Part shown: in pieces, positions 4 to 61,521 of the stretch
Numbering within the stretch: the stretch's first letter is position 1
Layout: each line of letters starts with the position of its first letter
DNA from: Synechococcales cyanobacterium S06
Lineage (GTDB): Bacteria > Cyanobacteriota > Cyanobacteriia > Cyanobacteriales > JAABRE01
NCBI GenBank assembly: GCA_011391125.1
Contig: JAABRE010000017.1
Location: 1 to 64,000 of the forward strand
Direction of reading: 5' to 3'
DNA: 64,000 bases
The notes under the pieces: generated by a model
Told to the model about the DNA's origin: nothing
The model's input: the letters and a program-made list of their open reading frames with translations, nothing else
Database searches by the model: none
Position numbers and translations under genes: made by a program

Positions 4-210
4 GGGTTTGCTGAATAAATGGCTGGTGAGGGCGAGTTGATAGTTGATAGTTGATAGTTTGACCGGGTCTTTTGACGAGCAAAAATCTTGATTAATCCCC
101 GTAAATGTAAGGTTTTTTACTATTATTTGTTGACATCCTTGCACTTAATTCAAGTCCCACCAACTTAAAAGTCTTGATCTACATAGCTTTCAGCTTTTTT
201 CCGTAAACCC
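4..210 (-). repeat. Miniature element R1, copy a (3 heptamers)
   Basis: First of three copies of a miniature element with imperfect terminal inverted repeats (GGGTTTACGG at one end, GGGTTTGCTG at the other). The core is 207 bp and carries three TATCAAC heptamers read on the minus strand. It is in reverse orientation to the copies near 15.1 and 17.9 kb and is nearly identical to them outside the heptamer array. It has no open reading frame of note. The remaining stretch to the rpsD stop holds TAATTAG-type heptamer repeats and an AT-rich stretch; I see no gene in it. Confidence 0.85.
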
Positions 211-15022: not shown

Positions 15023-15360
15023 AGACATCTTGCAAAACTAGGAATAAAATCAATTTTCCTACAGAAAGCGTCAATTTCGACCCTTATTACCTATTACCTC
15101 GGGTTTACGGAAAAAAGCTGAAAGCTATGTAGATCAAGACTTTTAAGTTGATTGGACTTGAATTAAGTGCAAGGATTTCAACAAATAATAGTAAAAAACC
15201 TTACATTTACGGGGATTAATCAAGATTTTTGCTCGTCAAAAGACGCGGTCAAACTATCAACTATCAACTATCAACTATCAACTATCAACTCGCCCTCACC
15301 AGCCATTTATTCAGCAAACCCTACCTATTACCTATTACCGCGACTTGGTGCAAGAAGTCT
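15023..15360 (+). repeat. Element R3, copy a, interrupted by R1
   Basis: An element with terminal inverted repeats AGACATCTTGCA (left) and the complement of AGACTTCTTGCA (right, ending 15360). It contains a unique segment (GGAATAAAATCAATTTTCC, AGAAAGCGTCAATTTC) and TTACCTA heptamers. An intact copy lies at 58140-58249. Here the heptamer part is split by an R1 element (15101-15321). Removing R1 leaves 117 bases against 110 in the intact copy. Confidence 0.75.
15101..15321 (+). repeat. Miniature element R1, copy b (5 heptamers)
   Basis: A 221-bp copy running from GGGTTTACGG to CAGCAAACCC, with five TATCAAC heptamers. It is 14 bp longer than copy a, exactly two heptamers. It sits inside the heptamer tract of an R3 element. 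A small plus-strand ORF through it is not a credible gene. Confidence 0.85.
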
Positions 15361-17932: not shown

Positions 17933-17948
17933 TATCAATTATTAATTA

Positions 17949-18302
17949 GGGTTTACGGAAAAAAGCTGACAGCTATGTAGATCAAGACTTTCAAGTTGGT
18001 GGGACTTGAATTATAGTAATTCCAAATAAAAATTAAACAAAAGTTTTTAGTTTGTTGTTGGACTTTAGTCCTAAGAAGCGCTAAAGCGCAACAACGAACC
18101 TATTTTTCTACTGTTCTAATCTTAATTTACATTACTATAAGTGCAAGGATTTCAACAAATAATAGTAAAAAACCTTACATTTACTGGGATTAATCAAGAT
18201 TTTTGCTCGTCAAAAGACGCGGTCAAACTATCAACTATCAACTATCAACTATCAACTATCAACTATCAACTCGCCCTCACCAGCCATTTATTCAGCAAAC
18301 CC
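17949..18302 (+). repeat. Miniature element R1, copy c (6 heptamers), split by R2
   Basis: Same ends as the other R1 copies, with six TATCAAC heptamers. It is interrupted at 18014-18137 by an R2 element. Without the insert and its duplicated TA it is 228 bp, one heptamer longer than copy b. Its right end (AAACCCTA) supplies the stop codon TAG of the natD-like gene on the minus strand. Confidence 0.85.
18014..18137 (+). repeat. TA-flanked MITE R2, copy a, nested in R1
   Basis: 124 bp with inverted ends TAGTAATT and AATGTAGTAAT-like (TAGTAATTCC against the complement of ACATTACTA), flanked by TA on both sides (18012-13, 18138-39). The interior has two hairpins, GGACTTTAGTCC and GCGCTAAAGCGC. 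The other R1 copies read GAATTAAGTGC at this point, so removing the element plus one TA restores the empty site exactly. Confidence 0.9.
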
Positions 18303-19156
18303 TAATTACTAAATAATCCTTGGGGTTTTACTAACAGAATTATCACCATAATTAATAATGCTACCCCTAATTTATATTCCGGACCTAATACCAAGGTACT
18401 TAATTCACTGACCACGCCAATGATTAAACCACCAGCGATCGCCCCGTAGGGATTGCCGATACCACCAAGAATCACCGAAGCAAACATGGGTAAGATTAAA
18501 AACCAGCCCATATTCGGTCGAACTTGGGTCATTAAACCGTACATTCCTCCCGCTAAAGCAGTGAGAATACCTGTTATAATCCAAGTCCAGAAAACCACTT
18601 TTTCCACATTAATTCCTGACACTCTAGCTAAATCAATATTATCAGCAACGGCGCGCATTGCTTTACCGATTTTGCTATTTTGTAAGAGAAAATGTAGGGC
18701 AATAATTGCTAGGATAGCCAGAATAATTACAATTACTCGATAATAGGCAATTTTAACACCAAAAACATCGATCGCCTCCAACAAAGGTAAATTGTATGAT
18801 TGATTACCTCCCCCCCAAATTAAAAGAATGGTACTACGAAGAAATAAAGCCAAACCAATAGAAATAATAATTAAAGTAGTAGTATCAGCCCTAACATTTC
18901 TCATGGGTTTCCAAAGTGCTTGTTCGGAAATTAACATAGCAACAATTGTACCAAGACATCCGAAAATCATTGCCAACCAAATATTAACTCCATTAGTATT
19001 AGATAACCAAGTAAAATAAGCTCCCAAAGTCATAAAATCACCATGGGCAAAATTAGATAACCTTAAAATACCGTAAGTTAAAGTTAAACCCACCGCTGCA
19101 AGAGAAATAATACAACCTAAAGCAACACCATTAAAAATTAATTGAGCAATATCCAT
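18302..19156 (-). CDS. natD: Branched-chain/neutral amino acid ABC permease (LivH/NatD type)
   Basis: A 284-aa inner-membrane permease of the HAAT ABC family, with about eight helices and the family signature region GLTLTYGILRLSNFAHGDFM. In cyanobacteria NatD is one of the two permeases of the N-I neutral amino acid uptake system; the urea permease UrtB is a close relative, so the exact substrate is uncertain. The cognate ATPases, second permease and binding protein are not in this window, fitting the scattered nat genes of cyanobacteria. The C-terminus KPQGLFSN is full length, but the stop codon TAG is made by the end of an adjoining R1 element. Confidence 0.88.
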   Translation of the reverse strand: MDIAQLIFNGVALGCIISLAAVGLTLTYGILRLSNFAHGDFMTLGAYFTWLSNTNGVNIWLAMIFGCLGTIVAMLISEQALWKPMRNVRADTTTLIIISIGLALFLRSTILLIWGGGNQSYNLPLLEAIDVFGVKIAYYRVIVIILAILAIIALHFLLQNSKIGKAMRAVADNIDLARVSGINVEKVVFWTWIITGILTALAGGMYGLMTQVRPNMGWFLILPMFASVILGGIGNPYGAIAGGLIIGVVSELSTLVLGPEYKLGVALLIMVIILLVKPQGLFSN

Positions 19157-45779: not shown

Positions 45780-45800
45780 TTCCAAATTTTCCAGAAGTTA

Positions 45801-45817
45801 GGGGCAATAATTGCCCC
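45801..45817. terminator. GC-rich hairpin between convergent genes
   Basis: GGGGCAAT-A-ATTGCCCC, 8-base arms, placed between the stops of the TPR gene and the NVK-repeat gene. No long T-run, so terminator function is only likely. Confidence 0.55.
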
Positions 45818-45825
45818 CCTGAAAA

Positions 45826-47217
45826 TTATTCAGCTTTAACGTTGTCTTGAACCTGGTCTTTAACGTTGTCTTTAACGTTGTCTTTAACGTTTTCTTTAAC
45901 GTTGTCTTTAACGTTGTCTTTAACGTTTTCTTTAACGTTGTCTTTAACGTTTTCTTTAACGTTTTCTTTACCTTTACCCTTGTCTTTACCTTTGTCTTTA
46001 CCTTTACCAGGACCTTTACCTTTACCTCCACCTTTAGGAGGAACAGGTTTAATTGGTTTTAAATAACGAGGAATTTTCTTAGTTGGTTCAGATAGTAATT
46101 CAAGCAAATTAAGGGAATCAAATCTCGAATTAAATTCACAAACACACTCGACAAAATAACGATCGCCCTGCTCTTTTTTATCAGCTTTCGGATTAAAACG
46201 AAAAGGTTTAACGGGGGAATCTTTCCAAAATACAGGGCAATGATCTGCTTTCAATCTATCTTCATCATAGCGTTTTGTATTACGATAAACTGTAATCACA
46301 GGACGGGGATAAACAGCAATAAATTGCCAAATTCCCTTAATGTAAAATTTATCAGTTATCTTATCTTCGGGAGTATGACCCCAACTAAAAATTTCAAAGA
46401 AAAATTTAGGAGGATTATCGCGACCAGGAAAGTGAGTCCAACGAGGATACACTCCCAAAATCATTTCACCTTTGTTGGCCACGTATTGGTTAAAAGAGCG
46501 TATATGCCCAACTTTGCCACCTTGTTCTTTGATCAAGAAGCGACAATCATATTCTTTACCCCGATAAATGACTTTTTTAGTAAACTTGCCTTCTGCATCC
46601 TTGCTTTGCACCACACTTGCTTTAATCCAAGCGATCGCCTGAAAGACGGTCACGTCAACATCACTGTCATCCATACCCTCCTCAGTATGTTCCGATTCTG
46701 GGGTGGTAGTTTCCAAACTGCTATCCAGGTCTGTCTGTTCAACAGGAAGGGGAGGTGCAGCTTCCGGTCGTGGTTCTTCTTGTGTTTTTAAATCTACGGG
46801 AGCAGAAACAACTTCAGGTGTCGTTTTTAACAAAGTCCACTGGTTCTCTTTAAATTCCCATTCTGCTAAAATCTGATCATAAACATCTTTGTTTTTACCT
46901 CTGGGATTAGTTTTTCCCGTTCTCCAATTGACGAGGGTCGGGGACTTAACCGATAAACCTAATTTTTCGATTAATCCTTCATCGGACAATCCTTGAGGTA
47001 ATTCTCCTTCTTTTTCGGGTGGTGTCGCTGGGGGCTTGGCGATCGCCTCAGCAACAGGCTCACCATTGGCGGTGTCAACTAACTTAGCTAATTGGGATTC
47101 TAGTTGACTTAAAACATCCCGAAAAGTTTTTTCAACAGGAGAACCTTTAGCCATGGTCAACCGTTGTTTAATATCCGCTATTTGTGTGGTTAATTTTTCA
47201 ATTGCGTTTGGTTCCAT
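45826..47217 (-). CDS. Unknown protein with HTH-like segment and (E/D)NVK repeat tail
   Basis: 463 aa from ATG 47217 (an in-frame GTG lies 12 bases upstream). In order: a helical start (LTTQIADIKQRLTMAKGSP), a possible helix-turn-helix (LIEKLGLSVKSPTLVNWRTG, followed by KTNPRGKNKDVYDQI), an acidic Pro/Glu-rich linker (about 125-185), a compact domain rich in Trp, Phe and Tyr (about 190-380: AIAWIKASVVQSKD, FNQYVANKGEMILGVYPRW, GIWQFIAVYPRPVITVYRN), a Gly/Lys-rich basic stretch and eleven tetrapeptides (E/D)NVK at the end. No named domain recognised. The linker and tail look disordered. A role in binding nucleic acid is a guess from the HTH-like and basic parts. Confidence 0.75.
   Translation of the reverse strand: MEPNAIEKLTTQIADIKQRLTMAKGSPVEKTFRDVLSQLESQLAKLVDTANGEPVAEAIAKPPATPPEKEGELPQGLSDEGLIEKLGLSVKSPTLVNWRTGKTNPRGKNKDVYDQILAEWEFKENQWTLLKTTPEVVSAPVDLKTQEEPRPEAAPPLPVEQTDLDSSLETTTPESEHTEEGMDDSDVDVTVFQAIAWIKASVVQSKDAEGKFTKKVIYRGKEYDCRFLIKEQGGKVGHIRSFNQYVANKGEMILGVYPRWTHFPGRDNPPKFFFEIFSWGHTPEDKITDKFYIKGIWQFIAVYPRPVITVYRNTKRYDEDRLKADHCPVFWKDSPVKPFRFNPKADKKEQGDRYFVECVCEFNSRFDSLNLLELLSEPTKKIPRYLKPIKPVPPKGGGKGKGPGKGKDKGKDKGKGKENVKENVKDNVKENVKDNVKDNVKENVKDNVKDNVKDQVQDNVKAE
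45835..45966 (-). repeat. Eleven 12-bp tandem units coding (E/D)NVK
   Basis: 132 bases = 11 x 12, read on the minus strand as GAC/GAA AAC GTT AAA. The order is E E D E D D E D D, then one diverged unit DQVQ, then D. Upstream comes a 9-15-base-unit KGK/KDKGK tract. The low divergence makes slippage and length variation between strains likely. Confidence 0.95.
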
Positions 47218-53975: not shown

Positions 53976-54094
53976 TAGTAATTCCAAATAAAAATTAAAC
54001 ATTTTAGTTTGTTGTTGGACTTTAGTCCTAAGAAGCGCTAAAGCGCAACAACGAACCTATTTTTCTACTGTTCTAATCTTAATTGAAATTACTA
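53976..54094 (+). repeat. TA-flanked MITE R2, copy b
   Basis: 119 bp with ends TAGTAATTCC and GAAATTACTA, TA on both sides, and the two hairpins GGACTTTAGTCC and GCGCTAAAGCGC. It lacks five bases (ACAAAAG region) compared with copies a and c. It lies between the convergent hemJ and LapA-like genes and may serve as their shared terminator. Confidence 0.9.
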
Positions 54095-61397: not shown

Positions 61398-61521
61398 TAG
61401 TAATTCCCAATAAAAATTAAACAAAAGTTTTTAGTTTGTTGTTGGACTTTAGTCCTAAGAAGCGCTAAAGCGCAACTACGAACCTATTTTTTAACTGTTC
61501 TAATCTTAATTGAAATTACTA
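61398..61521 (+). repeat. TA-flanked MITE R2, copy c
   Basis: 124 bp with ends TAGTAATTCCCAATAAAAATT and its near complement TTAATTGAAATTACTA, TA on each side, and the paired hairpins GGACTTTAGTCC and GCGCTAAAGCGC. In the 332-base gap between the RTX gene and the coiled-coil gene; the rest of that gap is AT-rich with an AATCTAGCGCTAGATT palindrome near 61362. Confidence 0.9.

Follow-up and report, generated by a model that had tools for sequence, protein, structure and literature searches.

The closest known case to the element described here is the Repeat Unit of Pneumococcus (RUP), a repeat of ~107 bp present in ~110 copies, whose ends resemble those of IS630-Spn1 of the same genome and for which movement in trans has been proposed (PMC3049150). 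Pneumococcal RUP, BOX and SPRITE repeats moreover insert into each other (PMC10969869). ISY100 (ISTcSa) of Synechocystis PCC 6803, a 947-bp IS630/Tc1-mariner element, has imperfect ends of 24 bp and duplicates the TA into which it inserts, and mini-elements retaining just 30 bp of each end also transpose (PMC2170065); a slight preference for A/T-rich sequence next to the TA has been described as well (PMC6400869). Anabaena sp. 90 carries MITEs that are short, gene-less and multi-copy, with inverted ends and no IS with matching ends (PMC3542288), and Nezha is cited in PMC10969869 as a short, gene-less MITE of other cyanobacteria.

Here we describe R2, found in a 64,000-nucleotide stretch of contig JAABRE010000017.1 of Synechococcales cyanobacterium S06 (the whole stretch analysed, hereafter the window). 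R2 shares with RUP the short repeat, the ends of a same-genome IS630 element and the nesting, yet its host belongs to another phylum and its end sequences are different. Furthermore, unlike in RUP, a large set of paralogous empty sites served to check the TA duplication of R2, and one TA was used four times. R2 also differs from the Anabaena sp. 90 MITEs in having an IS with matching ends; its likeness to Nezha is one of description alone, as given in the citing source. A partial search of the literature found no description of R2 itself.

Anatomy of the nested site

As read from the sequence, R2 is a gene-less, 124-bp mobile element inserted into a second, unrelated short mobile element, R1. 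The left part of R1 (GGGTTTACGG...GACTTGAATTA) lies at 17949-18013 (+), its last two bases (18012-18013) being the first copy of the target TA. R2, a putative IS630/Tc1-type MITE, follows at 18014-18137 (+), then the second copy of the TA at 18138-18139 (+), recognised as a duplication by comparison with uninterrupted R1 copies, and finally the right part of R1 (AGTGCAAGG...heptamer array...AAACCC) at 18140-18302 (+). The R1 copies at 4-210 (-) and 15101-15321 (+) are uninterrupted at this TA and read GAATTAAGTGC, whereas the nested copy reads GAATTA + 124 bp + TAAGTGC; when R2 and one TA are taken out, the R1 sequence equals that of the uninterrupted copies. A genome-wide pattern search recovered 59 R1 copies with the target site, 55 of which run straight into AGTGC or AGGGC, while the remaining 4 run into an R2 end. 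The sequence-only reading had proposed both the nesting at 17949-18302 with TA duplication and the two empty copies, and both proposals held. Two further R2 copies that it had named are likewise flanked by TA on both sides, one of 119 bp with a small internal deletion (53976-54094, +) and one of 124 bp (61398-61521, +). None of the 55 uninterrupted R1 copies bore an excision scar, which leaves excision undocumented.

R1 has a target duplication of its own, TAATTA, at 17943-17948 and 18303-18308. Such an exact 6-bp duplication was found at 48 of the 52 R1 copies with both edges (47 of the form TANNTA), and we therefore take R1 itself to have transposed. Uninterrupted R1 copies range in length from 193 to 235, mostly in steps of 7, owing to an array of AACTATC heptamers whose unit number varies among copies (L111-L182). 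In this respect R1 is like BrickBuilt of Porphyromonas gingivalis, a MITE containing a minisatellite (PMC4596501), the comparison being by description only and the hosts unrelated. IS5-type elements stand at many contig ends, where TANNTA is followed by GGGCTTGCTGAATAAGTG; this resembles the right end of R1, GGGTTTGCTGAATAAATG, with its TANNTA duplication, a likeness that concerns one IS end only. A fragment of an IS5-type element scored 121 bits with the NCBIfam model IS5_1. R1 is a second MITE, probably of IS5 type.

Several features were noted around these repeats. At 18302-18308 the R1 insertion abuts the 3' end of an ORF (18302-19156, -) that we take, from its sequence and without a database match, to be branched-chain amino-acid permease-like; its stop is now TAG, using the last base of R1, and joined flanks would give TAA. 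A third repeat, GGCGTTGCAT...TGCAACGCC with GGGGCAATCCCTTG inside, lies in or beside R1 at L134, L177 and L142 (G000:C66, C113 and C101), with an apparent flanking 8-bp duplication, AAAAACCT, in L134. Elsewhere in the window, a tandem array of a 12-bp unit (CTTTAACGTTGT) occupies 45798-46035.

The R2 family and its probable IS630-type partner

The R2-type end pattern matched 368 times genome-wide, as against 2 matches for a reversed control pattern, giving an estimate of ~184 elements on the assumption that both ends of each copy match. Like the 59 R1 sites, 4 of them filled, this is well beyond what chance would yield. R2 is thus short, multi-copy and without a transposase gene. Copy statistics were drawn from sampled stretches of the genome, in which 88 of 94 distinct copies, told apart by their flanks, had TA on both sides (the count of 94 is slightly low, one nested copy having been merged with another of identical flanks). 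Copies without TA on one side were L003, L019, L304, L308, L142 and L022; the non-TA flank of L019 is also that of L304 (GGCTATTC), which suggests that a rearrangement came later. Of 148 detections, counted per strand so that some copies appear on both, 135 measured 124 bp. Among 84 full-length (124 bp) copies, a number that includes one odd sequence with 71 differences from the consensus, 28 were identical and 57 had an identical neighbour. Because so many are identical, the amplification of R2 appears recent. These data bear out the earlier expectations that R2 would occur at other loci, with TA duplication there too, and that it was recently live; R2 may even be currently active.

In most copies the ends read TAGTRATTYC, with imperfect inverted similarity over ~27 bp. 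The short inverted ends reported for the nested copy are indeed present, but their perfect part is just 7 bp (TAGTAAT), because the right end departs from the usual sequence (TTTACATTACTA). A stem-loop (GTTTGTTGTTGGACTTTAGTCCTAAGAAGCGCTAAAGCGCAACAACGAAC; 18050-18099, +, in the nested copy) occupies the middle of R2, and the folding z of the whole element is -3.03. The stem-loop resembles a palindromic repeat that occurs alone, lacking R2 ends, elsewhere in the S06 genome and in other cyanobacteria, and R2 seems to be made up of IS630 ends that enclose a captured copy of this repeat. The solitary copies could also be read to mean that R2 itself belongs with the REP/BIME-like palindromic repeats. 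A REP-associated (Y1-type) transposase, or else recombination, would then have spread it, and its TA flanks would be accidents of an AT-rich genome. However, the moving unit is not the stem-loop but the 124-bp element with its IS630-type ends, which match IS630 elements over 27 bp, and the TA is duplicated relative to the empty sites. On the TA duplication and the ends we rejected a REP-type origin, which we regard as scarcely credible. Full-length R2 was not found in 59 relatives, all of the same order, which yielded no more than short pieces or the core of the stem-loop, and the exact R2 pattern had no match in a scan of a genome-contig collection that may leave out near relatives.

IS630-type transposase genes with TATAGTRATTCC ends are present in the S06 genome, most copies being cut by contig ends. 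Two elements are complete, of 946 bp (C63) and 945 bp (C159), each with TA on both sides, two ORFs and the ends TAGTAATTCC...GGAATCACTA; the sequence-only reading had proposed a search for an IS630-type transposase with such matching ends. ORF A matches PF01710 (HTH_Tnp_IS630, 136.9 bits) and ORF B matches PF13358 (DDE_3, 105.7 bits), with a DD34E spacing counted by eye from the sequence. In their HTH_Tnp_IS630 and DDE_3 domains, DD34E spacing, length (~0.9-1.2 kb for the family) and TA flanks, the two elements agree with the IS630 family; the NCBIfam IS630 model gave 93.5 bits for ORF B alone, just under a cut-off of 100 set for the whole protein. Since the two ORFs are in different frames and overlap at an A9 run, a -1 frameshift there would apparently join them into a fused transposase, predicted at ~297 aa as counted from the sequence. 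By description, this arrangement of two overlapping ORFs differs from the single 282-aa ORF of ISY100. The genes of both elements are apparently intact.

R2 and this autonomous IS630-type element have their terminal inverted repeats in common, and the left/right A/G difference between the element's ends, TAGTAATTCC and TAGTGATTCC, is the same as in the commonest R2 type. IS630 relatives were found in Microcoleus, Microcystis, Synechocystis, Hormoscilla, Trichodesmium and others, and the ends of many are close to TAGTYATTTCAAATAAGAATGAGACA. A matrix derived from 49 ends, all belonging to relatives in other cyanobacteria and none to S06, placed the window's six R2 ends above all others among its 10,959 TA-adjacent sites (11.3 to 24.1 bits, the next site scoring -2.1). 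The left end of S06's own IS scored only 6.2 bits, and C63 and C159 are accordingly candidates for the exact IS copy that drives R2. That R2 outscores this end might indicate that it was moved by another IS630-type element, lost or unassembled, rather than by the C63/C159 type, and there is indeed another subgroup whose right ends read TAGTGATTCCAAATAAGAACCGAACAC, in copies cut off at contig ends. Against this stands the TAGTAATTCC/TAGTGATTCC asymmetry common to R2 and S06's own IS group. We consider another driver possible, if rather unlikely; it is a variant of the explanation preferred here and compatible with it at the family level.

Taken together, the TA duplication and the match to IS630 ends support the IS630/Tc1-mariner-type assignment made earlier. 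R2 is very probably a non-autonomous MITE of this type, mobilised by a related IS630-type transposase, that landed in R1. The IS elements with matching ends and the many identical R2 copies can be read off the genome directly; mobilisation in trans by the transposase of S06 is what we infer. R1 would have inserted first, as a MITE with a 6-bp TANNTA duplication. The transposase of the related 945-946-bp element would then probably recognise the two imperfect ~27-bp ends of R2 (TAGTRATTYCAA(A/T)TAARA...AACA), which flank a stem-loop and no gene, excise R2 and join it into a TA dinucleotide, and gap repair would duplicate the TA, in the cut-and-paste scheme established for ISY100. In the nested copy at 17949-18302, the target TA presumably happened to be inside R1.

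Repeated insertion at one TA

The four filled R1 sites, in the window, C35, C88 and C108, carry R2 at exactly the same TA, in one orientation in the window and C35 and in the opposite orientation in C88 and C108. The same junction at four loci, together with the near identity of the R1 copies of the window and C88, could suggest that R1 and R2 were copied as a composite unit, the nested state going back to a single insertion that was then carried along as R1 spread. The opposite orientations largely refute this account, the R1 hosts differ in sequence and in subtype, and no two R2 alleles are alike except those of C35 and C108, which are identical but mutually inverted. We deem composite copying very improbable: unless R2 was inverted in place, the differences in orientation, host and allele indicate that R2 inserted separately at least twice and probably four times. 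The sequence alone shows the anatomy, the copy number, the TA duplication and the repeated insertion at one TA in both orientations.

In a further two R1 copies, R2 sits instead at TAs within the AACTATC heptamer array (L181 and L145, the latter reaching a contig end). If targets were chosen uniformly among ~15 TAs, 4 of 6 insertions at one TA, whichever it be, would have a probability of roughly 0.004. In a tally that left out recognised nested copies, R2 targets favoured A at -3, T at -1, A at +2 and T at +4 relative to the TA, and ANT-TA-ANT made up 15% of R2 targets compared with 2% of the TA sites of the window. The repeatedly used TA of R1, GAAT-TA-AGTG, fits ANT-TA-ANT exactly and ranks second by target score among the TAs of the R1 copy at 15101; the four filled hosts read CTTTCAAG and lack the better-scoring TA (CTTT-TA-AGTT). 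It is conceivable, though we hold it doubtful, that the MITEs of the S06 genome are preferred landing pads for one another, the TA context of R1 matching the preference of R2 and R2 accumulating where the cost to the host is small. If so, these sites would amount to a replicated experiment of nature on how IS630 elements choose their targets.

The principle is not new, as RUP and ISY100 already establish the mechanism, and the case is ordinary in kind, yet unusually well documented. It offers a clean natural record of insertion by an IS630-type MITE, in which paralogous empty sites are plentiful and one TA was used repeatedly in both orientations. As the genome also holds what appear to be intact partner elements, both the choice of target and cross-mobilisation could be tested directly in cyanobacteria.
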